A stretch of DNA of 64,000 bases. Source: a bacterium (lineage in GTDB: Bacteria; Hinthialibacterota; Hinthialibacteria; OLB16). How positions within the stretch are numbered: position 1 is the first letter of the stretch; the number at the start of each line of letters is the position of its first letter. Under the pieces are notes generated by a model. The model was not told the origin of the DNA. It made no database searches and worked only from the letters and a program-made list of their open reading frames with translations. This document shows, piece after piece, positions 7,347 to 38,846 of the stretch. The position numbers and the translations under genes are program-made. The DNA lies in assembly GCA_022072055.1 (NCBI GenBank), contig JAJVIK010000002.1:1-64000 (forward strand). The letters are read 5' to 3'.

Positions 7347-8696
7347 TCACTGGGCTTGTAGCTGCTCGAGCAGCCGCTGGTATTCATGGACGTAGGAGAC
7401 ACGCTGGCTTCCCGAAGTCTTCCCCTCGCGAAGCCGGAGGCGGGTGAAGTCCACCGCTTCCGCCTCCGCGTCGCTCCCCCCCTGGTCAAGCGCCAGACCG
7501 CTCTCAAACGCCGCCTGGGCTTCCTCCAACCTCCCCTGGCAGCGCAGCACGTGCCCCAGCCAGCACCACGCGTCCACCACGCGCCCCGCGAACTCCTCGG
7601 CGGGAATCCGTTCCGTCATCTCCCGAAACCCGGCCTCGGCGTCGGTGTACCGCCCCAGGATCGAGTTGACCGCGTGGTAGTTGTAATGAACCCACACCAC
7701 CCACTCGCGGGTGGGGCCTTGAATCGTGTCGAAGGCGCTCAGGGGAAACCGGTCCTTCCAGGGGCGCAGACGTCGCTCGACCGCGATCAGGTTCCCTGAC
7801 TTGAAGTCCGGGTCCGCCGCCTCCACGTCGAGGATCATTCGCGACAGCGTGTCGCCTTCCAGGACCCCCCGATACCAGGATAGCGTCGTCTGGGTCTGAC
7901 CGAAGCGGCGCTGCTCCCAGTCGCTTGCCGGGCTGGGCGTCACGCCTGGCAGCAATTCGGACAGCTCGGTGTAGGCCCGCAACGCTTCCGTGGGGTTGCC
8001 GATGTGGTGCGAGTAGATGATCCAGACCCCCAGCGCCCAGGCCCGTTCCATTAAATAGTCGGACTGGAGGCACTCCGAGGCGGCGCGGACACCCAGATTC
8101 ACCTGCTCGTGTCGATACAGGTCGTCGGCGGAGGCGTGCCGGACGGCGAACACGGCGGAGGGATCGCCAAGCTGCTCGGCGAGAAGAATGGCGAGTTCAT
8201 ATTCGGGGGTGGCCTCGGCGAGCCGCCCGGCGTCGAGCAAGGTTCGACCCAGCAGAACTCCAACACCCGGATTCTCGACGTAGAGCGGGTCTTCAACCGC
8301 CTTGCGCAGGCACTCCTCGGCCCCGACCAGGTTGCCGAGCGCTCGGTTCAGGATCGCCGCGTCGAGGAGCATGATCCCTTCGGCTGTTCCCGAAAGGATC
8401 TCTTGGCTTCGCTGTTGGAGGCCCTCCCGGATCGCCTGCTCGGTCTGGGAGGCATAGGCCTCCTCAACCTTGCGAAGCAGGTCCAGGAAGTCGCCGCTCT
8501 CCCGCCACACATAGAGGACCCGGCCGCTGTCGGGGAGCGCGCTGACCAGCTCCCCCTGGCCGATAACGGCTTCGGCACGTGCGTAATCAGTGAGCATCGC
8601 TTCCCGGACGGCTGCTCCTTGTTCAGGGGTTGCAGCTATCCAGGTCATGCTGAGGGCGGAGAACGGGATGAGGAGCGCGGTAAGGACCGGAGTCAT
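7347..8696 (-). CDS. Exported TPR-repeat protein
   Basis: The product is 449 residues and starts at the ATG at 8696, preceded by AGAGGAGG at good spacing. The N-terminus (MTPVLTALLIPFSALSMTWI) is a signal peptide. The body is helical with tetratricopeptide-like segments, for example around an LGNLVGAEECLRKA stretch and a C-terminal repeat with the pattern LGHVLRCQGRLEEAQAAFES. TPR domains mediate protein-protein contacts. The gene ends 13 bp before the giant secreted gene, so the two are almost certainly co-transcribed, and this protein may assist its export or assembly (inference). No enzymatic motif was seen. Confidence 0.75.
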   Translation of the reverse strand: MTPVLTALLIPFSALSMTWIAATPEQGAAVREAMLTDYARAEAVIGQGELVSALPDSGRVLYVWRESGDFLDLLRKVEEAYASQTEQAIREGLQQRSQEILSGTAEGIMLLDAAILNRALGNLVGAEECLRKAVEDPLYVENPGVGVLLGRTLLDAGRLAEATPEYELAILLAEQLGDPSAVFAVRHASADDLYRHEQVNLGVRAASECLQSDYLMERAWALGVWIIYSHHIGNPTEALRAYTELSELLPGVTPSPASDWEQRRFGQTQTTLSWYRGVLEGDTLSRMILDVEAADPDFKSGNLIAVERRLRPWKDRFPLSAFDTIQGPTREWVVWVHYNYHAVNSILGRYTDAEAGFREMTERIPAEEFAGRVVDAWCWLGHVLRCQGRLEEAQAAFESGLALDQGGSDAEAEAVDFTRLRLREGKTSGSQRVSYVHEYQRLLEQLQAQ

Positions 8697-8785
8697 CGGG
8701 ACGACCTCCTCTGCGACAGGAAACACTATGTGCCTGATACAGCCGCCTGAGCGAGTCACGCAAGCGAATCAAATAAACCGGTACG

Positions 8786-8814
8786 AAGATATCACATCAG
8801 GCTCTACAATTCAA
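8786..8814 (-). promoter_or_regulatory. Weak sigma70-like promoter candidate for the TPR/secreted operon
   Basis: On the minus strand TTGAAT and TATCTT are separated by 17 bp, about 90 bp upstream of the TPR gene start at 8696. Each hexamer matches 4 of 6 consensus bases, so this is only a candidate. The rest of the 8697-8950 spacer shows no gene. Confidence 0.25.
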
Positions 8815-8950
8815 TTCTCTCTTCGTCAACTCAGAAATCTTCTTGGTGGATCACCCTAACCCCTGGACCATAAGCACGTTCCGACACGGCTACGGGCGGA
8901 TAGCAGCTGGGAGCCGCGCCTCTGAGGGAACACACCGGATGTGCCTCCTA

Positions 8951-8980
8951 AAGAGAAAAGGCCACCCGGTGGGGTGGCCG
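8951..8980 (-). terminator. Rho-independent terminator of the ArdC-like gene
   Basis: Read on the minus strand, GGCCACCC pairs with GGGTGGCC across a 4-nt loop and is followed by TTTTCTCTTT. It begins 7 bp after the ArdC-like stop codon at 8988. Confidence 0.85.
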
Positions 8981-8987
8981 TGGAGGG

Positions 8988-9848
8988 TCAGGGGGCGGCA
9001 AGGGCCTCGACCCGCGATTCGAGCGCCTCAATGATCCGCCCCGCCGTGTGGCGCACGATCTCCAGGCGGTTGAGGAGCAGCTGCGGCGTGGCCTCGTGGA
9101 GCAGGAGGTAGTCGGCGGTGTCGCACTCGATCCCGTAGCGGTGGCACACCACGAACGCGGTGGCGTCGGCCTCGGTCTCGCGGATCGTCTTGTCCTCCTT
9201 CTCCGCGCGCCAGTGCAGAAGCTCGTGGGCATACTCGTGAACCAACGTGCGGAAGGCGTCGGCGGGCGCGAGGTCCCGCTTGATCACGATCCGTCCCTTG
9301 AGGGATACGCCACAGGCTCCGAACGAACCCGGCACGCTGTCTTCGATATCGAGGATGATTCCCGCTGAGCGGACGACTTCCACGAGCGCGGGATAGAGCG
9401 TGGAGACATTCCCGGTTGCGTGAATCACCTCCGGGAGCGGTTTGCCCTCGGTCTGGGACACGTCGAACACATACACGATCTTGAAGATGAGGAACGATTC
9501 GAGAGTCTCCCCGTCGTCCTCGTTCGGCATGTCGGCGTGTCGGTACCCCACGCGCATGGGGGCGAGGATGGCGATCCCCTTCTCCCCGCGCTTGACGTAC
9601 CGCCCCAGGTCGTTCCAGCGCCGCATCCCCGCCAAGCGCGAGAGGTCGGGCCGCTGGGTGAGCGCGAGCAGGATGTTGTGGAACGAGTACTGGTGGAACT
9701 TGGCGCAGCATTCGAGGTAGCGGAGCAGGGTCTCGGATTTCCCGGCCTCCATCTCGCGCAGGAGTTCTTCGGCGGCGTCCTGGACGGACTCGTTGAGCGC
9801 CTTGACCTTCTCGCTGGGTTTGGAAAGAACAACGTCTTGAACCGGCAT
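8988..9848 (-). CDS. ArdC-like protein with HExxH metallopeptidase domain
   Basis: The product is 286 residues and starts at the ATG at 9848, preceded by AAGGAGGTG. The first half resembles the ArdC N-terminal ssDNA-binding domain (DUF1738 type): a helical segment, the stretch YSFHNILLAL, then RRWNDLGRYVKRGEKGIAIL. The second half carries HEYAHELLHW with a downstream ETEADATAF, fitting a zinc HExxH site with a glutamate third ligand, as in ImmA/IrrE-type peptidases. ArdC proteins on plasmids protect incoming DNA from restriction. The gene stands alone between an inverted repeat and its own terminator. Family-level identification is good; anti-restriction activity is inferred. Confidence 0.8.
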   Translation of the reverse strand: MPVQDVVLSKPSEKVKALNESVQDAAEELLREMEAGKSETLLRYLECCAKFHQYSFHNILLALTQRPDLSRLAGMRRWNDLGRYVKRGEKGIAILAPMRVGYRHADMPNEDDGETLESFLIFKIVYVFDVSQTEGKPLPEVIHATGNVSTLYPALVEVVRSAGIILDIEDSVPGSFGACGVSLKGRIVIKRDLAPADAFRTLVHEYAHELLHWRAEKEDKTIRETEADATAFVVCHRYGIECDTADYLLLHEATPQLLLNRLEIVRHTAGRIIEALESRVEALAAP

Positions 9849-9876
9849 CGATTCACCTCCTTGCAAAGAGCAATCG

Positions 9877-9900
9877 CCGACTCAGGTAGCGATGAGTCGG
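9877..9900 (-). repeat. Inverted repeat between the RuvC-like and ArdC-like genes
   Basis: Perfect 8-bp arms CCGACTCA and TGAGTCGG surround an 8-nt loop, 20 bp after the RuvC-like stop (9920) and just upstream of the ArdC ribosome binding site. On the minus strand it is followed by CGATTGCTCTTTGC, a poor T-tract. It could be a weak terminator for the upstream operon or an operator for ardC. Confidence 0.5.
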
Positions 9901-9919
9901 TCATGACTCCCGACAAGGT

Positions 9920-10414
9920 TCAGAGGGAATCGAGCGCCACGAGTCCCAGCGCCACGGCGTCGAACATGTTGGCGTGGAACCTCTGCTTCCACTTGGGTAG
10001 CTCGACGACGTACCCCTTGAGTTGCGGGTACCTGGCCACCAGGACGGCGGCGACTTCAGCCTTGCTGGCGTGGCCGTTCCCGGTGACTCGCTTCTTCACG
10101 GTGCTCGGAGCGAAGGAGAGGACGGTGAGGCGCTTCCTCCTGCCAAGCGCCTGGACCTCATCCGCGAGCACGTTGACGAGCGCGGCGTTGCGGTTGTTGG
10201 CGAAGAAGGTTTTCTCCACGACGAGCGCGTCCGGCGTGAAATCGCGGATCATGCGCAGGATTGTGGTTCTCCCTTCCCTGAGGATCGCGTGGGGAGAGGT
10301 TCGGTGGAGGAAGACGTGCACGCCGTGGTACACCACCGCGTCCCCTTCCAGGACGGCGACGCCCATCTCGCGCGTGCCGGGGTCAATCGCCAGGATGCGG
10401 TGGGGTTTGGGCAT
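9920..10414 (-). CDS. RuvC-like Holliday junction resolvase-fold protein, copy 2
   Basis: The product is 164 residues with an RNase H/RuvC-type fold: strand 1 with IDPGTREMGVAV (first catalytic Asp), VVEKTFF (Glu) and a C-terminal MFDAVALGLVAL (Asp). RuvC proteins cleave four-way DNA junctions using a D-E-D-D cluster; here the last position shows one Asp where RuvC has DxxD. It lies 11 bp after a second RuvC-like gene, and the two share the start pattern DPxxRxxGVxV. The pair sits in an XRE-headed operon in a mobile region, so a role in element replication or recombination is likely (inference). A non-catalytic or CRISPR-like use is not supported. Confidence 0.7.
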   Translation of the reverse strand: MPKPHRILAIDPGTREMGVAVLEGDAVVYHGVHVFLHRTSPHAILREGRTTILRMIRDFTPDALVVEKTFFANNRNAALVNVLADEVQALGRRKRLTVLSFAPSTVKKRVTGNGHASKAEVAAVLVARYPQLKGYVVELPKWKQRFHANMFDAVALGLVALDSL

Positions 10415-10425
10415 GGAAACTTGAA

Positions 10426-10917
10426 TCAGCGGAGGGAGTGGTAGAAGGTGAGGGCAAAGGCGGCGGCGTCGAAGAGGCTCATGCGCGGGTCTTCGCTCAT
10501 CCAGGGTTTTCGGAAGGGAGGAAGCGACGGGGCCAGTTCGGGAAGCCGCGCGGCGATCCGCGTGGCGGCCTGGTGTTTGGTGTCGGCCCCAAGTCCCTTG
10601 AGGACTTGGTCGCGGTTCACGGAAACGACACCCACCTTGCGCGACAGGGCCATGGGGCGGATCGAGTCAATCAGGATGCGGACCCGCGCGCACCTCCGGC
10701 ACGCGGGGTGCGCCGTGTCTTCGATCACCACCACGTCCGGCTGGAAGCGGTGGAGGAGGTCGGTAACCAAGGCGAGACAGCGCGCGTCTTTGGCGTCGCG
10801 CAGCTCGCGGACACCCCACTCAATCGGGAGCGTGGGACTTTCAAAGACCACGACGCCCAGACCTCGGCTGGTGGGATCGAGCGCGAGGACGCGTGGAGAT
10901 TGGGGGTGAGGCTTCAT
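10426..10917 (-). CDS. RuvC-like Holliday junction resolvase-fold protein, copy 1
   Basis: The product is 163 residues and keeps the same D-E-D layout: ALDPTSRGLGVVVF, VVVIEDTAHPAC and SLFDAAAFALTF. It also has a CRRC pair directly after the Glu motif that the neighbouring paralogue lacks, possibly a metal site or a structural feature. It overlaps the upstream XRE regulator gene by 4 bp (ATGA), implying translational coupling. Two diverged RuvC-like proteins side by side is unusual. They may form a heterodimer or act on different junctions (inference). Confidence 0.7.
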   Translation of the reverse strand: MKPHPQSPRVLALDPTSRGLGVVVFESPTLPIEWGVRELRDAKDARCLALVTDLLHRFQPDVVVIEDTAHPACRRCARVRILIDSIRPMALSRKVGVVSVNRDQVLKGLGADTKHQAATRIAARLPELAPSLPPFRKPWMSEDPRMSLFDAAAFALTFYHSLR

Positions 10918-11270
10918 ACCGGGAGATCGAGCACGTCCCCGTGGCTTTCCATGAGGGTCCGCAGGGTCTCGCGCTTGCGCTCCAGGCGGGGGCTTGCGCT
11001 GGCGCGGGTGAGGCGCGCGTGCAGCCGTCTGGCTCGACCGGTGGTCTTGCGTTCGACCTCGTCCTGGACCCCAGCGAAGAGGCGGCGGACAGGCGCGTGG
11101 AAGAGGAGTTCAAGCGCAAGCAGGGTGCGGAGGCTCGGTTCGCGGACGGCGTGTTCCAGGCGGGAGACCTGAGAGGCGGTGGGGAGGCCCAACAAAAAAG
11201 CGACCTCCTTCTGGGTCAGTCCGGCTCCCCGGCGGAACGCGCGGAGATAGTTGTGGAGGGGTTTGGACAC
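10914..11270 (-). CDS. XRE-family helix-turn-helix regulator
   Basis: The product is 118 residues with a GTG start at 11270. An HTH_XRE domain covers about residues 7-65: RRGAGLTQKEVAFLLGL, then SQVSRLEHAVREPSLRTLLALELLF. The C-terminal half is basic and helical (many Arg), with no known domain. It heads the minus-strand operon of two RuvC-like genes and faces a divergent operon starting at 11601. It is the natural candidate to bind the palindrome at 11505-11532. The start codon has only a weak ribosome binding site. Confidence 0.85.
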   Translation of the reverse strand: MSKPLHNYLRAFRRGAGLTQKEVAFLLGLPTASQVSRLEHAVREPSLRTLLALELLFHAPVRRLFAGVQDEVERKTTGRARRLHARLTRASASPRLERKRETLRTLMESHGDVLDLPV

Positions 11271-11497
11271 AAAAGAACAAAGAATGGCTTTCGACCACGA
11301 GCCGGGGAAGGTGCTCAGTGTGTTCTATTGTATCGGGGTGCGTGGGGAGAGAAAGACGGGGAAACGTGCTGGGGGAGCACACTTCGTTTGTTTCCAACTT
11401 CCCTCCACCAACTCCCGACGTTGAACCCATTCAGATTCGGCACTTGGACTTACCACCTGGGCAAACTTGTGGAACCGCTGGCAATTCGGTCTACCAT
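11271..11497. other. Left half of divergent intergenic region, no gene seen
   Basis: Together with 11498-11600 this 330-bp gap separates the XRE operon from the rightward 11601 operon. On the minus strand a TACAAT sequence near 11330 could be a -10 element for the XRE gene, but no matching -35 is clear. No open frame here looks coding. Confidence 0.4.
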
Positions 11498-11532
11498 TTG
11501 ACAGATACCATACTTATAGTATTATATGGTAT
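11498..11532 (+). promoter_or_regulatory. Promoter with overlapping palindromic operator
   Basis: A perfect -35 TTGACA (11498-11503) and a -10-like TATTAT (11520-11525) are 16 bp apart, 76 bp before the start of the 11601 gene. A palindrome with perfect 8-bp arms, ATACCATA (11505-11512) and TATGGTAT (11525-11532), fills the spacer and -10 region. Repression by a dimeric regulator such as the divergent XRE protein would block this promoter (inference). Confidence 0.6.
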
Positions 11533-11600
11533 GTGTCACTCCTGAGCAGAAAGGGGTGCCTTGAACCTTAGGGCGCTCCGACTGACTCAGGAGGATACAA

Positions 11601-12353
11601 ATGATCTTTCACAGACTATGGGAACGACTGAAGCAACAGAGAGAGGTACGGAATGAGCGCAGAAGGAGGGGGCGTATCTTATTAAGCCGGGAGCTCGATT
11701 GGCCACCGGATGGGGTACTTGTCCACCTCCCGAGAGGCATGGGTGTGGCCTTGGAACGACTAAACGAGCTTGCTCAAGACACCAAGTACCCCGATTCCCC
11801 GTTCTACGCCGAGCCTGCATTCTTCTTCCGTCCAAGCGAAGATATTAAATGGCTCACATGGGGAATCGCGGACATCTTGGAGGCCGAGGAGAAACAAACG
11901 GCGTTCATGAAGGAATACGTGGAGAACTTGGAGTACACCCTGCGATCACCAACGGACGCAGTGGCATACACCGCTGTTGACATCCCGCCTGATCTTGTCC
12001 CACTCTATATCAGAGAACGATTCACCGAGCCTTACACGAGAGAAATGTACAGAAAAGACGATGAGACTACCGAGCTTTACTTCGGGCACCCACTCACACG
12101 GGAAGAACGTGACGCTCTACCGCTCGTGATGAGAGAATGGTATATCTACGCGGCCACGAATCTCCTTGGACAGATCAGGCCTGTCCATCGCGAACGGGTA
12201 AAGGGGCAAGTCCGGATAGCCATGCTCTACTTGGTAGACCACTACCGACGGGTAGTTCCAGAAAGAGAGAGACTTCGGGAACGGATCAAGGCACTCGAGG
12301 ACAAGGTCAAGGATCGATTTCCTGATTTCCTCCTCAAGTCTGAACTCGCATAA
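11601..12353 (+). CDS. Protein of unknown function, first gene of the channel operon
   Basis: The product is 250 residues. The start is firm: AGGAGG lies 7 bp upstream of the ATG. I do not recognise the family. The N-terminus is very basic (an Arg-rich run near residues 10-25). The centre contains aromatic-rich stretches (FYAEPAFFFRPSEDIKWLTW), and the C-terminus (about 205-240) is a charged helix that could form a coiled coil. There is no signal peptide and no membrane segment. It lies 83 bp upstream of an ion-channel-like gene on the same strand with a terminator between them, so the pair may be expressed at different levels from one promoter. It may sense a trigger or gate the channel (speculative). 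Confidence 0.75.
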   Translation: MIFHRLWERLKQQREVRNERRRRGRILLSRELDWPPDGVLVHLPRGMGVALERLNELAQDTKYPDSPFYAEPAFFFRPSEDIKWLTWGIADILEAEEKQTAFMKEYVENLEYTLRSPTDAVAYTAVDIPPDLVPLYIRERFTEPYTREMYRKDDETTELYFGHPLTREERDALPLVMREWYIYAATNLLGQIRPVHRERVKGQVRIAMLYLVDHYRRVVPERERLRERIKALEDKVKDRFPDFLLKSELA

Positions 12354-12383
12354 TTGCAGCTCTCAAGTGAGAGATGGCGCTTA

Positions 12384-12415
12384 AGCCCCATTCGTCTGGA
12401 TGGGGTTTTCCTTTC
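12384..12415 (+). terminator. Hairpin with T-tract between the unknown and channel genes
   Basis: CCCCAT and ATGGGG flank an 8-nt loop and are followed by TTTTCCTTT. It sits after the stop at 12353 and before the channel start at 12437. It could act as a partial terminator lowering expression of the channel gene. Confidence 0.6.
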
Positions 12416-12436
12416 CACCAGAAGAGGACAACGGTC

Positions 12437-13270
12437 ATGAGTAGCCCCCCCGAGATAGAAAAGGCAAACGATTGGATGAGAATTGTCAAGGAAGAGGGTT
12501 TCATTGTCGCAATCACAGAGCGGATATTCTACTTCCTCCAGTGGATGCTTTCCCCTCTCTACCACAAGGAGTTCTGCCTGACTCTGTACCGTGACTCGCT
12601 CGCAAACAAACGGCCGGAGAAGAAGAGGAGGATTCGACACACCTCAAGCATCATTTACCGAGATATGATGATGACCATCTGGTTCACCATCACGGGGATA
12701 GTACTGCCTTTGCTCTTCCTGTTCGCCCCTCGCTCATTCACGCTGCTTGCGTCATACCACAGTGGGGCCTTCATCGGCGTATGGGGTATATTGGAAATCC
12801 TCCAGCATCACATTAACTTCATCCTCTTCCAGAACATCCGCCGTCGGTGCATGAGATTTGAAAAATACCCGCGAGATATCCTGGGTATAAACGCGCTGCT
12901 GGAGAAATTGCTCGGATTCCGACAGATGGAAATCTCAAAGGATGTCGAGACCGTGACTAGCGTTGCAAGGCGGCTAATTTTCGCTGTGATGGACTACTGG
13001 CGCCTGATCGTCTTCTCCGCGATCCTTTCATCGTCACTCCCACGGGGAGCGTTCAGCCGTGAGCTCACATCATTTGGGGAAACTCTCTACTTCCAGATCG
13101 TCACGGCAACCACGTTGGGCTATGGTGAGATTCATCCTGTCTCTGGACCCGCGATGGTAATCGTCTCGTTTCAGGTGCTTTCGGCATTTCTCTTTACCCT
13201 CATCGCTGTCGCTTATGTGATCTCACTCCTACCAAGGATGGAGATTATATCCGGCGGGGATCAGGAATAG
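12437..13270 (+). CDS. Ion-channel-like membrane protein with K+-type selectivity filter
   Basis: The product is 277 residues. I took the internal ATG at 12437 (AAGAGGA upstream) because a longer start would lie across the terminator hairpin. Four hydrophobic stretches are visible: two near residues 80-140 and the final pair bracketing a pore loop. The pore loop reads TATTLGYGEI, matching the T-x-G-Y-G potassium-channel selectivity filter, and is followed by a last transmembrane helix (AFLFTLIAVAYVISLL). This is the ion_trans_2 (2TM channel) pattern. In a defence island such a channel could be a membrane-depolarising effector, but an ordinary transport role is possible. Confidence 0.75.
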   Translation: MSSPPEIEKANDWMRIVKEEGFIVAITERIFYFLQWMLSPLYHKEFCLTLYRDSLANKRPEKKRRIRHTSSIIYRDMMMTIWFTITGIVLPLLFLFAPRSFTLLASYHSGAFIGVWGILEILQHHINFILFQNIRRRCMRFEKYPRDILGINALLEKLLGFRQMEISKDVETVTSVARRLIFAVMDYWRLIVFSAILSSSLPRGAFSRELTSFGETLYFQIVTATTLGYGEIHPVSGPAMVIVSFQVLSAFLFTLIAVAYVISLLPRMEIISGGDQE

Positions 13271-13423
13271 TCTCAACGGACCGACAATGCCGGCAACTGC
13301 CAGCAGGGATCCACCGCAGGTGGCTTCAGGTGACCTTGGGTGATTTCAGCCCAGAGAAAGAAGGACATACGGGCTGACCCGTTACTTTGTCAAGCCACTT
13401 CACTTTCTGGCCACTCAAGGTTC
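13271..13423. other. Intergenic, nothing recognisable
   Basis: First part of the 352-bp gap between the channel gene and the P-loop ATPase gene. No gene, terminator or clear promoter was seen; the rest of the gap holds a degenerate gene end. Confidence 0.4.
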
Positions 13424-13560
13424 TCAATCTCCTCTTATTGTTACCCGAATTGATGCAACGTCTCCGGCGGGTTTCGCCTCGGCCTCTCCCTTACCGACAT
13501 ACTTGTGGAATAGCCAAATGAGGAGCGGACCCGGAGAGGTGTCCTCTTACTTCGTCATTG
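13424..13560 (-). pseudogene. Degenerate second copy of the 3' end of the downstream P-loop ATPase gene
   Basis: On the minus strand this stretch encodes GPLLIWLFHKYVGKGEAEA and ends at a stop at 13424. This parallels the C-terminus of the intact ATPase at 13623, which has GPFLTRLFRKYGVGEDEAP. Upstream of about 13543 the similarity is broken by a frameshift. It looks like the remnant tail of a related gene, left when the present copy replaced it or after a tandem duplication. Confidence 0.55.
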
Positions 13561-13622
13561 AACCCGCGCAGGACTTTGTGGACTTCAGGGACTTCAAACG
13601 GGCAAGGCAAACCAGTCGATCC

Positions 13623-15032
13623 TCAAAAACCCAAGCGGTTAACAGAGCCGCGGTTTGATCCGTCCCCCTTTCCCATTCCCTCTCCAAAGTCACTAACGTC
13701 CCTGAAGTCCCTGGAAGGGGCCTCGTCTTCTCCAACTCCGTACTTCCGGAACAGCCGCGTGAGGAACGGCCCCTGGGTTGAATCAATCACAAACGATCCC
13801 TGGATACGCTGGGTCCTGAGGTGCAGCTTCTTCCGAATCACATACCCGATCCACTTCGGCGTGATCTTCCTTTCATACTCCTCCCCATGCCGGTCGGCGA
13901 ACCATCCCGTGATCGCCTTGAGCGCGAGCGGTTCCCCGGCTTCGCGCAGGTCGCGGATGACTTGAAGCACCTGGGCCTCCATGTCCAGCCCCCGGTCGGT
14001 GACCAGCTCGGCGTTGTAGGTCCGCGCCAAGTCCCGCAGGTCCTCGCGGGCCTGCTTGTCCTCAATGATGGAAAGCAGCGGGATGAAAATCTGGTTCAAA
14101 CGCGGTTCAATCGAGCGGTCGATCAACCCTTCCACGATCCGGCGCTTGGTTCGGTTCTTGAACCGGAAGAGGAGCAGCTGGTTCCTGAGGCGGAGCGCCT
14201 CCTCCTTGTACTCGGGCGGGAGGTTGATGGGAATGTCTTCGCGGAGTGGCCTTGTCCCCAGGTCCTCCTTGAGAAAGCGGCTCTCCAACGCGGGGTCCTG
14301 GTAATCACCACGGGTGGCCACGATCTTGGGGCCGAACACGGAAAACGCCGTGGGTTTGAACTCTTTGTCACGGGTGACCTCACTGCGGAGCACGGGGAAC
14401 CCCTTGACGTTCCCGTTGTTGAGGATCTTGACGATCTCCGCCCGTTCGTCCGACATCCGGAAGTCGGCCTCGTCCAGGATGAGGGTGCCCTTGAAAGCGT
14501 CCAGGATGCGGAAGAGCGGGGAGATGGTGGACGCGCCGCTCGCGAAGATGGGTTTGTAGCAGAGGGAGCCGAGCACGAGGAGAAAGCGAGTCTTCCCGGA
14601 GCCGTAGTCGCCTCGGACGCGGAGGTACGGGAGTTCGCCGAAAGCGTCGTACACCCAGGAGAAGAGGACGTAGTAAGCGGCAATCTGTTCAAACAGCGGG
14701 GACACGTCCACATAGCGGTGGACGTACGCCCGGATCGAGGCGATCAGGTCCTCCTCGGTCCCGTACTCCTCCGGCCCCGAGGGAAACAGCACGACCTCGT
14801 GTTTAAGGAGGTTGTTCGTGGCCGAGTACGGGACATACTTCCGCCCTCCGATCACCGCGTATTGCTGCACGGACCAGGAACCGTCCTTGAAAACGCAGAA
14901 CGATGTCTCCGCCGGATCGGATCGGTATAGGGTCTCAATCAGGGTCCCGTCAGCCAACGTGCCGGAAACGAGCGGCCAGCTTGATTGCGGCGGGGCGGGT
15001 GGCTTGGGCAAGGCGTCACGGACCGGGTGCAT
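13623..15032 (-). CDS. P-loop ATPase, phage/plasmid primase-helicase-like
   Basis: Taken from the ATG at 15032 the product is 469 residues. An upstream non-ATG start is possible because the frame stays open, with a CPAC motif upstream. A longer form would overlap the small gene at 15139. The Walker A is GDYGSGKTR (about residues 138-146) and the Walker B is TLILDEADF (about 182-190), followed by an arginine-containing segment and a C-terminal winged-helix-like region. The architecture resembles D5-like or DUF927/DUF3987-type helicases of phages and plasmids, though the exact family is not certain. It is divergent from a serine recombinase, a typical integrative-element arrangement. Confidence 0.6.
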   Translation of the reverse strand: MHPVRDALPKPPAPPQSSWPLVSGTLADGTLIETLYRSDPAETSFCVFKDGSWSVQQYAVIGGRKYVPYSATNNLLKHEVVLFPSGPEEYGTEEDLIASIRAYVHRYVDVSPLFEQIAAYYVLFSWVYDAFGELPYLRVRGDYGSGKTRFLLVLGSLCYKPIFASGASTISPLFRILDAFKGTLILDEADFRMSDERAEIVKILNNGNVKGFPVLRSEVTRDKEFKPTAFSVFGPKIVATRGDYQDPALESRFLKEDLGTRPLREDIPINLPPEYKEEALRLRNQLLLFRFKNRTKRRIVEGLIDRSIEPRLNQIFIPLLSIIEDKQAREDLRDLARTYNAELVTDRGLDMEAQVLQVIRDLREAGEPLALKAITGWFADRHGEEYERKITPKWIGYVIRKKLHLRTQRIQGSFVIDSTQGPFLTRLFRKYGVGEDEAPSRDFRDVSDFGEGMGKGDGSNRGSVNRLGF

Positions 15033-15138
15033 GCGGTCCACGGTATCAGGGGGCGTGAATTGGCCAAGGCAAGGGAACGTGCAGGCGGGGCAAATCCTCC
15101 CTTCTTTCTTCAGAGGGCGGTGAAGATACGCTCGAAAG

Positions 15139-15366
15139 ATGTCCGACGCCGCACCCCCGCCTTCCCTCAAGGCCCTTTTCCCAACTCTCAGTGAAGAAGA
15201 ACTCCGAGAAGCCGAGTTCAACCTCCGGCGATACCTCTCCCTGGTGATGGAAATCGTGGAGCGACAGGAGCGAGAGCTTGTGGATAACTCGTTTGACGAA
15301 CCGCCTCGCAAAACGGTAGCTTCGAAGCTCTTCTCTTCAGAAGAGAATCAAACCTCTTCCTCATGA
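15139..15366 (+). CDS. Small protein preceding the serine recombinase
   Basis: The product is 75 residues, acidic and helical, with a pattern LSEEELREAEFNLRRYLSLV seen in small genes that accompany large serine recombinases. It overlaps the recombinase start by 4 bp (ATGA at 15363-15366), so the two are translationally coupled. The function is unknown; it may regulate or assist recombination (inference). The ribosome binding site is weak. Confidence 0.6.
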   Translation: MSDAAPPPSLKALFPTLSEEELREAEFNLRRYLSLVMEIVERQERELVDNSFDEPPRKTVASKLFSSEENQTSSS

Positions 15367-16892
15367 AAACATACGCGGGATACATTCGCGTCTCCACCGC
15401 CAAGCAAGGCGAGAAAGGCGTGTCGCTTCAGGAGCAGCGCTCCGCGATTGAAGGCTACGCCGTCCGGAACAACCTGGCTGTTTCCGAATGGTTCGAGGAA
15501 CGGGAGACGGCGGCCAAACGGGGACGGCCCGTGTTCAATGAGATGCTCACTCTGCTTCGGAGGCGGAGACTGGACGGCGTCGTAATCCACAAAATCGACC
15601 GCTCCGCGCGCAACCTCAAGGACTGGGCGGACATCGGCGACTTGATCGATTCCGGCGTGGAGATTCACTTTGCGGGGGACGCGCTCGACCTCAACACCAG
15701 AGGCGGACGGCTTTCAGCGGACATTCAAGCGGTCGTGGCGGCGGATTTCATTCGCAACCTTCGGGAGGAAACGCGCAAGGGCATGTACGGGCGACTCAAG
15801 CAAGGCTTGTATCCTCTTGCTGCGCCGCTCGGATATTTGGACGGTGGGAAGGGAAAGCCCAAAGAGATTGACCCGGCGCGCGCCCGGCTCGTGCGATACC
15901 TCTTTGAGCGGTATGCCACCGGGAGCCATAGTCTCGACACGCTGGTGGTGGAAGCACGACGGATCGGTTTGACCAACAGGCGCGGGGAGCCACTGAAACG
16001 CTCCGCACTTTCGCTGATCCTCAAGAACCCTTTCTACATCGGCGTCCTCAGGATGGGGCCAGGGGGAGAAGTCTACCAGGGAGTCCATCAGCCGCTTATC
16101 TCCCGGCGTCTGTTTGAAACCGTCCAAGAGATTCTAGCTGGCAGAGTCCGCCATGTCACCTTTGCTCACCCATTCCTCTTCCGTGGCCTCCTCACGTGTG
16201 GCGTGTGCGGAAGGCTTCTCACCGGAGAACTACACAAAGGCCACGTCTACTACCGCTGTCACAACCGGAGCTGCGTCGAAAGGGCTTCAGCCCGAGAGGA
16301 AGAGGTTGAGAAGTCTGTTCGCGGCCTCTTGGCTCAAGTTCAGCCCACGGATGCGGAGATGGAAGTGATCCTCAAGCTGATCGCTCACCTACGGGCTGAG
16401 TGGAATGAGGAGCGAGACAAGCGAAGGGATCAGCTCCGTCTGCAGCTGGGGCAGGCCAAGATACGACTTGACCGGCTCATTGATTCGCACCTCGAAGGAT
16501 TGCTCGAAGATGGAGTCTTCTGCCGGAAGAAAGCCACGATCCTCTCCGAGATCAACCGCCTGGAAGAGGACTTAGCCGCATTGAAGGACGATTCCGCCAG
16601 TTCCATCGCCAAACTGGAAAAGTGTTTCGAACTCGCGAAAACGGCTCTGTTGACCTACGAATCGGGAAACTCTGACGAAAAACGGCGTTTGGTGGAAATC
16701 GCCAGTTCGAACCGGAGGGTGTTCGGGAAAAACGTTGTGGTTGAGCCGTCAAATCCGTTTCAGCTGCTCATGAATCGACCCCCCGTCCGGTCAAGGGTCC
16801 TTGAACCGAACCCAGTTAGAACTTTGTTGGAGTGGTTCACGTCGAAGGAGGGACTCTTGTTCGATCTCAAGATGGAAGAACTCGGGTTGTGA
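15363..16892 (+). CDS. Large serine recombinase (site-specific integrase), copy 1
   Basis: The product is 509 residues. The N-terminal resolvase domain begins YAGYIRVSTAKQ, with the catalytic Ser at residue 11, followed by the resolvase Arg cluster (HKIDRSARN). A recombinase domain follows (PLGYLDGGKGK to KNPFYIGVL), then a zinc ribbon (LTCGVCGRLLTG with YYRCHNRSC), and a long coiled coil near 340-420. Large serine recombinases integrate and excise elements at attP/attB sites. The gene has no good ribosome binding site of its own and probably relies on coupling to the upstream small gene. Nothing gene-like was seen in the 200 bp after it. Confidence 0.92.
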   Translation: MKTYAGYIRVSTAKQGEKGVSLQEQRSAIEGYAVRNNLAVSEWFEERETAAKRGRPVFNEMLTLLRRRRLDGVVIHKIDRSARNLKDWADIGDLIDSGVEIHFAGDALDLNTRGGRLSADIQAVVAADFIRNLREETRKGMYGRLKQGLYPLAAPLGYLDGGKGKPKEIDPARARLVRYLFERYATGSHSLDTLVVEARRIGLTNRRGEPLKRSALSLILKNPFYIGVLRMGPGGEVYQGVHQPLISRRLFETVQEILAGRVRHVTFAHPFLFRGLLTCGVCGRLLTGELHKGHVYYRCHNRSCVERASAREEEVEKSVRGLLAQVQPTDAEMEVILKLIAHLRAEWNEERDKRRDQLRLQLGQAKIRLDRLIDSHLEGLLEDGVFCRKKATILSEINRLEEDLAALKDDSASSIAKLEKCFELAKTALLTYESGNSDEKRRLVEIASSNRRVFGKNVVVEPSNPFQLLMNRPPVRSRVLEPNPVRTLLEWFTSKEGLLFDLKMEELGL

Positions 16893-17093
16893 GTCGTATG
16901 GGCTCAGTCTCGCATTCCGGCTTCAAAGAGGAAAGGAAGGGGGATGTGCCGAAACAGCATGTTTCAGACCAAGGTACCAATCGAATCGGCTTCGGGCGAA
17001 GCATGACGGATACACCCGAGATTCGGGGCGAAAAACACCGGCCCAAAACCACCTTATTCAACCCACTTTTCTGTCCAGCTCACCCCGAGGGGT

Positions 17094-17759
17094 TCACCCC
17101 TGCTCTTTCGGAAGCATATTAAGAAGGTCGGAGAACTTCTTCCCGTGCTTGTACAGGTCGAGAATTATGTTTCGCCAGTTTTGTTCCTCCTCGTCCTGAT
17201 TTCCCCTATCAGGCCAGTATTGTTCAAAGGAATCGTCATTGAGGATAGCGGGGAGTGCCTCTTTTACAACGCGTGGCAATGAGTCCGGCTGATAGTAATG
17301 GCAGAGTTCATGACGGATCTTGGCGTTGCGGTGAAGGTGGTTGGTAAATAGCGGTGCGGTAAACCAGGGAGACACCGTATCCTTATAATCGTATGGGTAA
17401 ATGTCGGTCCTTACCAAGTAACACGTCAAATCCGGTTCAATGAGCGACACCCCATAGAACTGGCCAAGTGTTTCGTAAAAATGATCAGAAACATTTCTCC
17501 AAGATCGTTCGATAAACGACACTTGACTTAGCATGAAGCGGGAAGCTGGGTCCGGCACTACCTCAAGGATCTGTTCGCGGAATTGATCCAACTGGCCATG
17601 ACCTTTAGTTGGAGCCATTTTCGTCTCAAATACGAATGCTTCGATATCCGAACTATATGTAAACCGTATCACACATGAATTGGTGGCGACATTCCACTCA
17701 ATGTTGTGATTATAACATAATAATGAAAAGGAGGGTACGACTTCGTATCCCTCCTTCAT
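17094..17759 (-). CDS. HExxH protein next to a RiPP-like precursor (candidate protease)
   Basis: The product is 221 residues from the ATG at 17759; a TTG at 17780 would add seven residues. A single clear motif, IRHELCHYY, gives H-E-x-x-H, the core of zinc metallopeptidases, roughly 150 residues in. There is no signal peptide or membrane segment, so it should act in the cytoplasm. Outside the motif I do not recognise the family. It is the third gene of the operon radical SAM protein, 44-residue peptide, HExxH protein, beginning 33 bp after the peptide stop. By analogy with other RiPP loci it could remove the leader peptide (inference). It could instead be a non-catalytic partner, since a distant third zinc ligand is not obvious. 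Confidence 0.75.
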   Translation of the reverse strand: MKEGYEVVPSFSLLCYNHNIEWNVATNSCVIRFTYSSDIEAFVFETKMAPTKGHGQLDQFREQILEVVPDPASRFMLSQVSFIERSWRNVSDHFYETLGQFYGVSLIEPDLTCYLVRTDIYPYDYKDTVSPWFTAPLFTNHLHRNAKIRHELCHYYQPDSLPRVVKEALPAILNDDSFEQYWPDRGNQDEEEQNWRNIILDLYKHGKKFSDLLNMLPKEQG

Positions 17760-17792
17760 CCCATCGGGAACTTTCAGCAATCGAAACGGCGA

Positions 17793-17927
17793 TTAGCTGT
17801 AGTCACCTGGGTCATCGCTCGTGCAATCATCAGGGGGCGCGGGACAATCGTCTGAAATAATCGCTGAGAGCCCCTTGGGAAGATCCTCCGGAATCTCTTC
17901 AGACACCATCAGGGGAAGATCCGTCAT
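17793..17927 (-). CDS. 44-residue Asp/Cys-rich peptide, candidate RiPP precursor
   Basis: A short gene read directly from the sequence: ATG at 17927, TAA at 17793-17795. An excellent ribosome binding site (AAAGGAGGTGA) overlaps the last codons of the radical SAM gene, which ends only 3 bp upstream. The N-terminal half (about 1-25) is an acidic, hydrophobic-patterned leader-like stretch with LPKGLSAII. The C-terminal 20 residues contain Cys28 and Cys35, each preceded by Asp-Asp, then a third Asp-Asp at 38-39 and a final PGDYS. Radical SAM/SPASM enzymes commonly modify such peptides, and two Cys could form thioether links. Precursor status is inferred from position, size and composition. Confidence 0.75.
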   Translation of the reverse strand: MTDLPLMVSEEIPEDLPKGLSAIISDDCPAPPDDCTSDDPGDYS

Positions 17928-17930
17928 CAG

Positions 17931-18965: not shown

Positions 18966-18990
18966 GATGATCTCCGATGTACTGAGAAGG

Positions 18991-19019
18991 ATTGTACCAC
19001 TTGAAGGTTTGAGTGACAA
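18991..19019 (-). promoter_or_regulatory. Sigma70-type promoter of the radical SAM/peptide operon
   Basis: On the minus strand TTGTCA (19019-19014) and TACAAT (18996-18991) are spaced by exactly 17 bp, 5 of 6 consensus matches each. Transcription would begin near 18984, 20 bp before the radical SAM start codon. It lies just after the terminator of the preceding gene, so the operon is independent. Confidence 0.7.
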
Positions 19020-19030
19020 ACACGATTTCA

Positions 19031-19060
19031 GCAAAGACCCAGCCCTCATCAGGCTGGGTC
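19031..19060 (-). terminator. Rho-independent terminator after the Cas4-like nuclease gene
   Basis: On the minus strand a perfect 9-bp stem (GACCCAGCC with GGCTGGGTC) and a 7-nt loop follow the stop at 19072; a short T-tract (TTTGC) comes next. It separates the nuclease operon from the radical SAM operon. Confidence 0.75.
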
Positions 19061-19071
19061 AGAATGAACCT

Positions 19072-19860
19072 TCACACCCTCACCAACGTCTCCTCGACCC
19101 GCTTCCGGTCTCCGGTGCAGACCGCTAGGAAGTCGCACCAAGCGCAGTGTTGGCCAGGACGTTTGTAGAAGCGGCGGTCGTGGATTTCCTGGGCAATTAA
19201 CCCCAGTTTCTCCAGGTATTCCCGCAGTTGCGGCCCGGTCCGGGAGGACAGGTGCCACTCGATCTTGGGTTCCTTGGTCTTCACGAACACCAGGAGGGCA
19301 GACTGTTCCGCAAAGGGTTCCGCGCACTGGTAGGCGGTGAGCTGGTCCGAAAGGAGGGCCTCGTGGCCCTCATAGGAGGAACCCGAGGTCTTGAAGTCGA
19401 TCACGGTGCGTTTGCCGTCCAGGTCCGCCACCAGGTCCAGGAACCCCACGAAGGGGAGGTCCAGGTTGGAGAGGGTCAGCGTGAACTCCCTCTCCGAGTC
19501 GTGGACCGTCCCGATCTTGGGCAGTTCCTCGGACACGAACTTCTCGAGGAGGAGGGTCCCCCGCTCGCGGAGGGTCTCGCGCTTCTCGCGGAAGGCAAAG
19601 CGCAGGTCCTGTTCCTCGGTGCAGTCCCAGGCGTCCTGGAAGTATTTCACCGGATCACCGTTCTCTTGGAAGAGCACGGCGAGCGCTTGGTGAATCAGCT
19701 TCCCGAAAACGAGGCTGGCTCCTTCCCGTTTGGGACGGAGGCCTTCGAGGTAGTACAGACGGTACTGCTCCGGGCAGGTCAGGTACTTGTTGGCCTGCGA
19801 ATAGGAGAGGTGGGGAACGCTTGGGGGGAGGAGTTGGTCGTCGCTTAGGTTGGCCACCAT
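19072..19860 (-). CDS. PD-(D/E)XK nuclease, Cas4/RecB-like, Fe-S type
   Basis: The product is 262 residues from the ATG at 19860, which overlaps the stop of the preceding gene (TGATG), implying coupled translation. An early Cys (YLTCPEQYRLYYL) and a C-terminal HCAWCDFLAVC give the four-Cys iron-sulfur arrangement of Cas4 and AddB-type nucleases. The active-site pattern is GFLDLVADLDG followed by VIDFKTS (D, then DxK). Such enzymes are DNA exonucleases or endonucleases. No Cas1/Cas2 or CRISPR array is present, so this is a Cas4-like exonuclease outside CRISPR, probably serving the element's DNA metabolism or its conflict with other elements. Confidence 0.85.
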   Translation of the reverse strand: MVANLSDDQLLPPSVPHLSYSQANKYLTCPEQYRLYYLEGLRPKREGASLVFGKLIHQALAVLFQENGDPVKYFQDAWDCTEEQDLRFAFREKRETLRERGTLLLEKFVSEELPKIGTVHDSEREFTLTLSNLDLPFVGFLDLVADLDGKRTVIDFKTSGSSYEGHEALLSDQLTAYQCAEPFAEQSALLVFVKTKEPKIEWHLSSRTGPQLREYLEKLGLIAQEIHDRRFYKRPGQHCAWCDFLAVCTGDRKRVEETLVRV

Positions 19861-20789
19861 CAGTACGGCACCCCCTCTTGGTACGCGGGGAACACCTTCA
19901 CCACGTTGGTGTACTTGCCGTCCTTGCTCGGTTCCAGAACCACCTGGCAGGGAAGGTTGAACTTCAGTTCTGGGTGAATCTGGACCGGGTTGATCGAGTG
20001 CCCGGCGCTCGCCACATGTTCCGCAAGCTGCTGGTGGTTCCCAAACAGTTTGTACTGCTTGCCGCTGACGTCCACGAGGAGGTACAGCCTCCACCCGGAC
20101 TTGGTCTGCATCCCGCCGACACTGAGGAGCGTGGCCGGGACCGGTTGCCCGTTGGCTTGCTGCCGGTACTGGCCGTTGGAGGGAGACCCTCCCTGGCCGT
20201 ACGCGCCGGTCTGCGGACCAAGGTTTCCGTTCGACGGGGGCCGTCCGTTGCCGTTGCCTTGGGTTCGGCTGCCGCGCTTGTCGGCGAGGAAGGTCTGGAC
20301 GATGGCGTCCTGGATACTGAGCGCCGTGCAGGCTTGGGTCACCGTGGCTCCGAAGTCGGCCTCGTGAACTGGGCAGGACAACTCCACCGAGAGCGAGTCG
20401 ATCTTTCCGTCCGGGGAGACACTGCGTTTGATCGTGAGGTCGCTGGGGAACCGGGGCGGCGTGTACCGTGTGTCCAGTCCGGTGACGCCGGACTCTTCCT
20501 GCATCGCCAGCCGCTCCTCGGCTTCAATCGGATCGACTTCCGGAGTGTGTTGTCCGTTGCCGCCCCGTCCGCCGAAGACGGCCAGAATGTGGGGACAGCG
20601 ATGGAGCCCGTCGCGCCGGTGAAGAAACTCCGCACAAGTGCAACTGGGCGCGGCGGGCGTGCCGCTCACGTGGAAGTGGGTGCGGGGGTCATCGGGTGAG
20701 AACACGTCGAACCCGCGTTCGGCTTCCGTGACGACAAAGATCGGGAGGGGGCTGTGTTGAACTTGGGTCTGGTACGCTGCTTGGACCAT
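19860..20789 (-). CDS. SWIM zinc-finger protein
   Basis: The product is 309 residues, with AAAGGAGG upstream of the ATG. The N-terminal part has CTC, a 12-residue gap, then CPH, the CxC...CxH SWIM finger pattern, which binds DNA or proteins. The centre is a low-complexity Gly/Asn/Gln/Pro linker (about 170-215). The C-terminal domain (about 215-309) is beta-rich with no recognised family. It is translationally coupled to the Cas4-like nuclease gene and may load the nuclease on DNA (inference). Shu2-type SWIM proteins in eukaryotes act in recombination, a loose precedent. Confidence 0.75.
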   Translation of the reverse strand: MVQAAYQTQVQHSPLPIFVVTEAERGFDVFSPDDPRTHFHVSGTPAAPSCTCAEFLHRRDGLHRCPHILAVFGGRGGNGQHTPEVDPIEAEERLAMQEESGVTGLDTRYTPPRFPSDLTIKRSVSPDGKIDSLSVELSCPVHEADFGATVTQACTALSIQDAIVQTFLADKRGSRTQGNGNGRPPSNGNLGPQTGAYGQGGSPSNGQYRQQANGQPVPATLLSVGGMQTKSGWRLYLLVDVSGKQYKLFGNHQQLAEHVASAGHSINPVQIHPELKFNLPCQVVLEPSKDGKYTNVVKVFPAYQEGVPY

Positions 20790-21122
20790 GAAGATGGTCC
20801 TCCTTTCGGGTATGGGTGTGATGGGTTCTAAAAGAACTCTGCACCCAGCGTACCGAGTGTGGGGAAAGGCGAAAGGAAGGGGTTTGTGCCGATTGCGGCA
20901 TGCTCCTCCCGGTCGTGGCTCAACCGAGACTTCAGGTCCTGATTGCAGTTTTAGCCAACCAGGTGTCGGTGGAAGTTTTCTTGACTTCTTTCCGATGGGG
21001 CGTACTCTTTGGGATAGACAGCGTCGAACTAAACGACGGCGAGCGGATCAGACTGAATCTCTGGACCGCCCGTTCTTTGACACAGCCCGGTTCAGGTGAT
21101 TCATCGTCAAGGAAGGGGCGGC
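20790..21122. other. Intergenic region between the SWIM operon and the higBA-like pair
   Basis: No confident gene. On the plus strand an open stretch from about 20835 encodes a Cys pattern reminiscent of a zinc ribbon (CTQRTEC, then CADC). It has no start codon before 20900 and runs into the toxin gene, so it may be a decayed gene. No promoter could be fixed. Confidence 0.35.
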
Positions 21123-21705: not shown

Positions 21706-21754
21706 CCGGATGACGTCCGGGCCAAGAGAGTGGCCTGAGCAAGTCAGGTCTTTT

Positions 21755-21790
21755 GAGCGCCCCTCTTCAAGGAAGGGCGCTCTTTTATTT
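21755..21790 (+). terminator. Rho-independent terminator of the higBA-like pair
   Basis: GAGCGCCC pairs with GGGCGCTC across a 12-nt loop and is followed by TTTTATTT, 50 bp after the antitoxin stop. Confidence 0.9.
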
Positions 21791-21879
21791 CCAGGCGGAG
21801 CGATAAACGGAGGGTCAAGGCACTGATTCAGACATACTCCCCAGGCTTGTAGATTAAGAGAGGCTTGCGACACTGGGGG

Positions 21880-23082
21880 ATGAACCCCAACGCCGACAAC
21901 CCGGTGACCTATTTCGCGCGCACCAACTTTCGTGGGGAAGGGAAACTTTTCGGTATCAAACAGCGCGACCGGCTGGCGCATCTATATGTCATCGGGAAGA
22001 CCGGGACCGGGAAATCCACGCTGCTCGAAACCATGATGAAGCAGGACTTGGAGCGCGGGGTCGGTTTCGCCCTACTTGACCCTCATGGGGACTTGGTGGA
22101 GCGCGTCCTGGCCGCCGTCCCCGATCACCGGAAGGCGGACCTGATCTACTTCAACGTTCCCAACCGCGAACACCCACTCACGTACAACCCGCTGGAACGG
22201 GTTCCATCCGCCAAGAAGTCGCTGACGGTCTCCGGTCTCCTGGAGGTTTTCCGCAAACTCTGGCCGGAGTTCTGGGGACCGCGCTTGGAGCACATCCTCC
22301 GGAACGCGCTGCTTGTGCTTCTGGATCAACCCGAAGCCACGCTCGCCGACGTGCTGCGCCTGTTTGACGAGAAAGCCTATCGCCACGAGGCGGCGGCGCG
22401 ATCACCCAACGCCCAGTTGCGGCGCTTCTGGCTCAAGGAGTACGAATCGTACCCCGCGCGGTTGCGGGCCGAGGCGATTGCTCCAATTCAAAACAAAGTT
22501 GGGGCCTTTCTCGCCGATCCCCTCCTTGCCCGAATTCTCACACAGCCCAAGAGCGACTTCTCACTGCGGGAGGTGATGGACGGCGGCAGGGTGCTCCTGG
22601 TCAACCTGGCCAAGGGGAAGATCGGGGAAGACAACGCGCGGCTGGTGGGGGCCCTGCTCGTGGCCGGGTTCCACGCGGCGGCGCTGAGTCGGGGGGACAC
22701 TCCGGAATCCGAACGGCAGGACTTCTTCATTTATTTGGACGAATTCCATTCGTTCGCTACCGGGACGCTGGCCTCCATGATGTCGGAGCTGAGGAAGTTC
22801 CATGTTGGGCTTGTGCTCGCCCATCAGTTCCTCTCGCAACTCGATCCCTTGGTTCGAGATGCGATTCTCGGCAATACCGGAACGATCATTTCATTCCGGC
22901 TCGGACCGGCGGACGCGGAGTTTCTCGCCAAAGAGTTCTTCCCGGAGTTCAGTCCCGAAGATTTCACCCGGCTCCCCAACCAGGAGGTGTACCTGCGTCT
23001 CTTGATCGACGGGAGGGTGTCGAGGGGGTTTAGTGGTAAGGTCGGGACCAACGGGAGTGGAGGACAGACCCCCCTCCCATAA
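21880..23082 (+). CDS. VirD4/HerA-like DNA-pumping ATPase (type IV coupling protein-like), short form
   Basis: The product is 400 residues from the ATG at 21880; a TTG at 21865 is an alternative. The Walker A is VIGKTGTGKSTLLE (about residues 42-55), followed by ALLDPHGDLVERVL, a segment typical of this family, and the Walker B region is FFIYLDEFHSF. There are no transmembrane helices. It is homologous to the central part of the 1053-residue protein at 45514 but lacks that protein's N- and C-terminal extensions. These ATPases move DNA in conjugation or pack it; without relaxase or channel genes nearby the job here is uncertain. Confidence 0.85.
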   Translation: MNPNADNPVTYFARTNFRGEGKLFGIKQRDRLAHLYVIGKTGTGKSTLLETMMKQDLERGVGFALLDPHGDLVERVLAAVPDHRKADLIYFNVPNREHPLTYNPLERVPSAKKSLTVSGLLEVFRKLWPEFWGPRLEHILRNALLVLLDQPEATLADVLRLFDEKAYRHEAAARSPNAQLRRFWLKEYESYPARLRAEAIAPIQNKVGAFLADPLLARILTQPKSDFSLREVMDGGRVLLVNLAKGKIGEDNARLVGALLVAGFHAAALSRGDTPESERQDFFIYLDEFHSFATGTLASMMSELRKFHVGLVLAHQFLSQLDPLVRDAILGNTGTIISFRLGPADAEFLAKEFFPEFSPEDFTRLPNQEVYLRLLIDGRVSRGFSGKVGTNGSGGQTPLP

Positions 23083-24296: not shown

Positions 24297-24483
24297 TATA
24301 GTAGCGTAGTCATCGGGGACCGTCTTCAGTTGAGTTCCCGGTCTCTTGACACCAAAAACATTGGAAAAGATGAATTGTCTTCGAAGGAAGCCGAACCCCG
24401 ATGTCCAGGCCAATGGACAGGATTTTGTCACTGCGCTACGTTCGGGTATCTTACATCGAAACCGTATGTGGGTTGAACTTTTT

Positions 24484-36917: not shown

Positions 36918-36938
36918 GGTCTGCTCCGCTCATTTTCA

Positions 36939-38833: not shown

Positions 38834-38846
38834 ATCGAACCCCCTT

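Follow-up and report, generated by a model that had tools for sequence, protein, structure and literature searches.

Proteins with a RuvC-type fold include pseudoenzymes as well as Holliday junction resolvases. The pseudonuclease core of TEFM clamps DNA, and non-cutting RuvC-fold proteins in transcription are known (PMC9950373, in the part of the paper that was available). ArdC of plasmid R388 is needed in recipient cells during plasmid entry and counters HsdRMS (available part of PMC7213743), which makes an entry role likely for the ArdC family. Relatives of both kinds of protein are encoded together in an operon on contig JAJVIK010000002.1 of a bacterium of the Hinthialibacterota (assembly GCA_022072055.1, positions 1-64,000 of the forward strand; this stretch of 64,000 nt is called the window). 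Its four minus-strand genes encode, in this order, an XRE-family helix-turn-helix regulator, two RuvC-like proteins (A and B) and an ArdC-like protein. It is proposed tentatively, with somewhat less than even confidence, that XRE and A are one functional unit in which A serves as a non-cutting regulatory DNA-binding partner within an element that carries a serine recombinase. RuvC-fold pseudoenzymes as such were already known; the coupling of one of them to an XRE regulator in a serine-recombinase element would be a new variation.

No description of an XRE-RuvC-like pair or of a pair of the A-B type was found in the literature searched, most subscription papers lying outside it, and neither pair is described in the available part of PMC8987985.

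Coupling of XRE and A

The four genes predicted in the earlier note were real and its coordinates exact, and a second copy of the operon was found in the same genome on contig C6 (G000:C6). The window XRE was assigned by its HTH_3 match (33.8 bits, Pfam cut-off 23). Its frame overlaps that of A by 4 nt, and 11 nt separate A from B.

The comparison was based on 26 A-type loci outside the window's genome, from Alphaproteobacteria (including Bradyrhizobium and Sulfitobacter plasmids), Verrucomicrobia and one IMG/VR contig (L084). Searches with A yielded 22 of them; of the remaining four, the recombinase led to three and B to one. A fragment from G134 (58.8 bits; L079), an identical protein in L008 and two unfetched plasmid hits (H2 and H4) were left out of the counts. 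When eleven XRE queries were used, ten of them taken from the A loci themselves, a homologue of the window XRE lay no more than 1.5 kb from A at 23 of the 26 loci, the exceptions (L013, L070 and L071) carrying a truncated or broken A. With the window XRE as sole query 21 of the 26 loci matched; the XREs of relatives were needed to recover L126 and L072, the latter having a partial gene at the end of its contig. No XRE homologue was found near housekeeping ruvC at any of 31 loci with similar flanks. The XRE/A junction was inspected at 20 loci outside the window's genome, distances being approximate in that the first start codon of each frame was taken as its start: the frames overlap in 15 (by 4 nt in 11 and by 11 nt in four) and are separated by 2 nt in four and by 10 nt in one. 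On L084 one gene stands between XRE and the RuvC-like gene.

Fold and catalytic residues of A

Protein A had no match in Pfam even when E values up to 1 were allowed, scored 13 bits against TIGR00228 (cut-off 100.65) and matched phrog_159, a family of RuvC-like Holliday junction resolvases, weakly (18.2 bits, E 0.0019). A model built from a six-sequence input (predicted local distance difference test, pLDDT, 89.8) found its best solved relatives among RuvC proteins (Foldseek E 2.7e-8; VIA Z 17.6 over 140 residues, root-mean-square deviation 2.3), and A is assigned the RuvC fold on this model.

The window A keeps Asp14, Glu66 and Asp150. The earlier claim that both RuvC-like proteins keep their acidic catalytic residues stands for Asp-Glu-Asp in the window; at the fourth catalytic position, which lies at -3 relative to the last Asp, A has Ser and B has Asn. 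Catalytic positions were scored in 23 relatives, truncated L013, N-truncated L070 and broken L071 being excluded here while still counted among the 26 loci. The first catalytic Asp is replaced (by Ala, His, Tyr, Ser, Thr or Asn) in all 23 A-type proteins outside the window's genome; the Glu is retained in 11 and the last Asp in 15, and none keeps all three. Only the window and C6 copies keep Asp-Glu-Asp, and the catalytic acidic residues by which membership of RuvC is judged are not conserved across the A family. A minimum of two changes of the first Asp is needed on the tree, such as a single loss followed by a regain in the window's genome; if only losses are counted, about four separate ones are seen by eye.

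The fold and a segment before the last helix (xPWMSEDPRMxxFDA) are largely kept by most A-type proteins, and A and B have a common insertion before this helix that housekeeping RuvCs are without. The extra CRRC pair to which attention had been drawn is present in A (ACRRCAR) and is not a family feature, being confined in the A-family alignment to the two copies in the window's genome. A conserved zinc site was rejected on the strength of this alignment, and an important metal site is unlikely because the pair is not conserved.

Between the window and C6 copies, the ratio of nonsynonymous to synonymous substitution rates (dN/dS, Nei-Gojobori) took the values 0.27 (A), 0.16 (B), 0.35 (XRE) and 0.17 (ArdC). 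The values for A and B indicate that both RuvC-like genes are maintained by selection, purifying in the case of A, and together with the second operon copy they speak against a chance arrangement. The housekeeping ruvC of the host lies elsewhere, on contig C18 (142 bits). Because the XRE linkage recurs, the first Asp is lost in the relatives and B is rare, what recurs is XRE together with a pseudo-resolvase, in many cases close to a large serine recombinase, with B as an occasional addition.

Distribution of A-type genes

Among 72,556 plasmid records, four contained relatives of A, on Bradyrhizobium plasmids, where they are currently annotated as 'hypothetical protein'. The genome_contigs scan gave five A loci, one alphaproteobacterial and four in metagenome-assembled genomes (MAGs) of Verrucomicrobia subdivision 3. 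In the class of one Verrucomicrobia MAG 8 of 384 genomes matched A at more than 80 bits, and in the class of the alphaproteobacterial MAG 5 of 385 did so at more than 130 bits; the weaker matches in both classes were mostly ordinary RuvC (20-40 bits). Among 398 genomes from the phylum to which the alphaproteobacterial MAG belongs, two gave a match at E 1e-10, and these had been found before; A occurred in one of the 14 genomes of the window's phylum, the window's own. Absences in these genome searches are not firm, since a limited number of first-look candidates is scored per genome (nine, for example). Two loci of genome G555 and a Sulfitobacter plasmid have divergent A-type genes, which were identified by their position next to the recombinase. 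Scans of viral_contigs with A and with the A2 alignment gave no confirmed A match, and A was rejected as a phage protein after a tblastn search of 50,697 phage records returned no match.

Protein B and its relation to A

B scored 57.5 bits against Pfam RuvC (cut-off 22.2) and 69.1 bits against phrog_159, and its model (two-sequence input, pLDDT 85.3) matched RuvC with a Foldseek E of 8.5e-11. Asp, Glu and the last Asp are present in all three B proteins, with Asn at -3 and His at -5. By its sequence, B is a recognisable RuvC; it is putatively intact and predicted to cleave junctions.

Among the places searched, B-type genes were found only in the window's genome (two copies) and on L084, which bears out the earlier remark that tandem RuvC-like paralogues are rare; at these three loci, where B exists, A and B may pair. 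The B search of plasmid and phage records gave only ordinary RuvC-like matches (about 33-36%), that of viral_contigs L084 and one unrelated RuvC-like gene, that of 20 A-bearing genomes or records the L084 record only, and that of the 14 genomes of the window's phylum the window's own only. The L084 B is 60% identical to the window B, and its contig also encodes TraG-like (51%) and PD-(D/E)XK (28%) proteins; for these reasons the tandem is considered older than the window's genome. A DUF932 protein is encoded directly behind B on L084 (5698-6429), in the place taken by ArdC in the window.

In the larger tree A and B together are separate from 15 housekeeping RuvCs (support 100/100), and B forms a group with support 100/99. 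An earlier tree split A and the L084 RuvC-like gene from B and the housekeeping rows (support 95/85).

The ArdC-like protein

The ArdC-like protein of the window is diverged: its ArdcN match (29.8 bits) exceeds the cut-off of 22.6, and its C-terminal part contains HEYAH and matches Peptidase_M78 at 15.7 bits, below the cut-off of 22. ArdC-like genes occur at two of the 26 other A loci, both in G555, an alphaproteobacterium, where XRE-A is followed on the same strand by a clear ArdC (ArdcN 108.5 and 104.9 bits, with MPTase-PolyVal in addition). Searched against the 26 A loci, the window ArdC gave no match at E 1e-5 and matched G555 at 1e-4. The proposal that the operon is a module for the establishment of incoming DNA is supported in part, namely by the position of ArdC in both G555 loci and by the entry role described for R388 ArdC (PMC7213743, available part). 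The window protein itself may act in DNA entry.

The integrative element

The second copy of the element lies near the end of contig C6. Core blocks shared with it (window 8144-23036) are 83-88% identical in DNA, with differing genes (cargo) between the blocks. The shared core comprises the four operon genes, a P-loop ATPase, a large serine recombinase, a PD-(D/E)XK protein, a SWIM-like protein and a TraG/HerA-like ATPase (Table 1).

Table 1. Operon genes, flanking signals and core genes of the element in the window
Feature	Position	Strand	Remarks
Terminator-like hairpin followed by T-rich run, operon end	8960..8979	-	read by eye; similar in C6 copy
ArdC-like protein	8988..9866	-	292 aa; ArdcN and metallopeptidase-like C-terminal part with HEYAH
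RuvC-like B	9920..10414	-	164 aa; Pfam RuvC; Asp-Glu-Asp, Asn at fourth catalytic position
RuvC-like A	10426..10917	-	163 aa, includes ACRRCAR; RuvC fold (model); putative XRE partner
XRE-family helix-turn-helix regulator, first operon gene	10914..11270	-	118 aa; HTH_3
Possible XRE operator, 14-nt inverted repeat	11266..11334	.	arms 11266-11279 and 11321-11334
Putative P-loop ATPase	13623..15311	-	GDYGSGKT and DEAD motifs; true start probably inside the open reading frame
Large serine recombinase	15363..16892	+	Resolvase, Recombinase and Zn ribbon
PD-(D/E)XK nuclease-family protein	19072..20094	-	PDDEXK_1 100 bits; homologues in C6 copy and L084
SWIM-like protein, element core	19860-20789		
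TraG/HerA-like ATPase	21865..23082	+	TrwB_AAD_bind 33.4 bits, DUF87 29.9 bits

The outer arm of the inverted repeat contains TACAAT, a candidate -10 box. The repeat is also present in the C6 copy, which counts for little because the entire stretch is conserved there, and short repeats can arise by chance; the repeat is a possible candidate for the XRE operator.

The P-loop ATPase, possibly a replication helicase, belongs to no Pfam (E up to 1), PHROG or NCBIfam family and has nothing significant among PDB sequences. The TraG/HerA-like ATPase was the only conjugation gene identified, no systematic search for a relaxase having been made; it also matches the PADLOC model mad8 (75.4 bits). Searches of viral_contigs with the TraG-like protein revealed no further such elements, and those with the P-loop ATPase yielded a single distant relative that lacks XRE-A and B.

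No more than 8 kb from the 26 A loci, a recombinase homologue was found at 13, a TraG-like ATPase at eight and a P-loop ATPase at three, several of the contigs ending close by; for the 22 loci from A searches the corresponding counts were ten, four and three. Conversely, the recombinase was matched at E 1e-60 in 8 of 385 genomes. Of the recombinase loci with at least 46% identity, six of seven adjoin XRE-A (G502, G014, G492, G568 and G555 twice), four of these six being already known from the A search and one of the seven being a partial gene. None of the three loci with at most 38% identity has XRE-A, two of them lying on contigs of less than 7 kb.

The C6 copy meets its contig end at the point matching window position 8144. 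A 42-bp exact repeat of a C6 stretch at window 50289-50330, in the opposite orientation to the other matches, lies near the likely far end of the shared region and is at most a candidate attachment site. The window further contains, at 24346-29871, a row of genes for a C5 cytosine methylase, PRTase-CE, an ORC-CDC6-like protein and a CARF6 protein, likely a defence module, and, at 30111-40627, Type I restriction-modification genes (including hsdR) with genes for a subtilisin-like protein and an AAA ATPase between them. In a genome of the Verrucomicrobia class (L067, 2407-8275) a Type II CRISPR-Cas locus stands directly behind XRE-A, with a Cas9-like protein (RuvC_III and HNH_4), Cas1, Cas2 and a repeat array of 66-nt period; it is possibly cargo of the element.

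Function of the operon

The operon belongs to the core of an integrative element, probably driven by the large serine recombinase. In the proposed reading XRE and A are one functional unit, and A would descend from a mobile-element RuvC. The loss of the cutting site in the relatives of A, in which DNA cutting would no longer be needed, suggests that a former DNA cutter became the non-cutting partner of a regulator. XRE and A would probably form a stoichiometric complex from their coupled genes, and A would most likely bind branched or bent DNA, or XRE itself; a complex of this kind, with A either providing binding of DNA structures or modulating XRE, agrees with the close coupling and with the lost cutting site of the relatives. 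XRE would probably repress its own operon, and A would tune the control by XRE of the entry and replication genes of the element. B and the ArdC-like protein would have been added downstream of XRE-A in the lineage of the window, B cutting the junctions that arise at element entry or replication (as a homodimer or with A) and ArdC shielding the incoming DNA.

Several points weigh against XRE and A being such a unit. The evidence for binding of XRE to A and for regulation by the pair is indirect. The window A, which keeps Asp-Glu-Asp, could itself be active. As a single group, A has a support of only 70/72 in the larger tree, with the L084 gene on a long branch; this gene was called A-type because of its position, its lost catalysis and the weak branch, and by pairwise comparison is about equally close to B and A. 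The counts of neighbouring genes are partly ascertained, four of the 26 loci having been recognised through the recombinase or B. A is dispensable to the element, as is seen from G467, in which the recombinase, ATPase and TraG-like genes occur but XRE-A does not.

In a somewhat unlikely alternative, A is a structure-specific DNA-binding accessory that works with the ATPase in replication or recombination of the element, while XRE is a mere autorepressor and the two do not act jointly. The relatives of the RuvC fold bound to DNA junctions are in keeping with this, as is the ATPase homologue directly before XRE-A in L075, L076 and L077; however, with the ATPase near A at three of the 26 loci and XRE at 23, the tight coupling is to XRE and not to replication genes. 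A heteromeric Holliday junction resolvase of A and B, in which an active subunit might be joined to a weak or dead one, had been put forward in the earlier note and is quite improbable. It draws on the RuvC-like gene directly before B in all three B loci (window, C6 and L084), on the L084 pair, in which B retains the three acidic positions and its partner none of them, and on the grouping of A with B against housekeeping RuvC. Yet the survey of neighbours found A without B at 25 of the 26 other loci, the separate occurrence that the note itself had regarded as contrary to its proposal, and among the 20 A-bearing genomes or records B was present in one; as a general function the heteromer is not supported in view of this and of the loss of the first Asp in 23 of 23 relatives, and an obligate A+B resolvase was rejected in that role.

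ImmR-ImmA is a repressor/anti-repressor switch. Like this one or DdrO-IrrE, XRE might form such a switch with the metallopeptidase-like part of ArdC, in which case the RuvC-like proteins would be passengers; this is in line with HEYAH and the weak Peptidase_M78 match of the ArdC-like protein, with the joint operon of XRE and ArdC in the window and in G555, and with the structural closeness of ArdC to IrrE (PMC7213743, available part). This is highly improbable: ArdC-like genes occur at only two of the 26 other A loci, and the XRE-A unit therefore works without ArdC.

The regulatory partnership of XRE and A could also take a more specific form, in which A is a resolvase turned sensor that binds the branched DNA appearing at cell entry, replication or DNA damage and, in complex with XRE, turns the element genes on. 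This form is unlikely; if true, A would be a bacterial counterpart of pseudonucleases of the TEFM type, and wherever a lineage has B one fold would both sense (A) and cut (B) the junction. If the partnership holds in its general form, a Holliday junction resolvase would have been repurposed inside mobile elements as the non-cutting partner of a regulator and spread between phyla. It becomes testable whether a pseudo-resolvase allows mobile elements to sense DNA structure, and XRE-A may serve to mark a family of serine-recombinase elements equipped with defence genes.

Comparison with known systems

Staphylococcal cassette chromosome (SCC) elements resemble the present element in having a serine recombinase beside a P-loop ATPase and variable cargo with restriction-modification (PMC7581432, available part). 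They differ from it in that its recombinase lies far below the Ccr cut-offs, its ATPase is in no known helicase family and its core contains XRE and a pseudo-RuvC. Membership of SCC was rejected on the CcrB score of 96.3 bits (NCBIfam cut-off 900) and after no helicase of the Cch (DUF927) or Cch2 type was found (Pfam at E up to 1; PDB sequences). With ArdC of R388 the window protein has ArdcN and a putative HExxH metallopeptidase-like part in common, and a clear ArdC stands behind XRE-A in G555; the window protein, in contrast, is diverged and is known here from its sequence.

The RuvC/YqgF-like transcription pseudonucleases TEFM, SPT6 and Tex are similar to A in having a RuvC-type fold that acts near nucleic acid without cutting (model of A against TEFM, Z 13.1; against SPT6, Z 11.2). 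They act with RNA polymerase, whereas A is a small stand-alone protein beside XRE that is linked to them by similarity of fold, and a shared fold does not show a shared, TEFM-like function. RuvC (PF02075; phrog_159) is the closest relative in fold of both A and B, with B reaching the Pfam score and both B and the window A keeping Asp-Glu-Asp. A departs from RuvC in lying below Pfam detection, in the loss of the catalytic Asp in its relatives, in an extra segment before the last helix and in its coupling to XRE.

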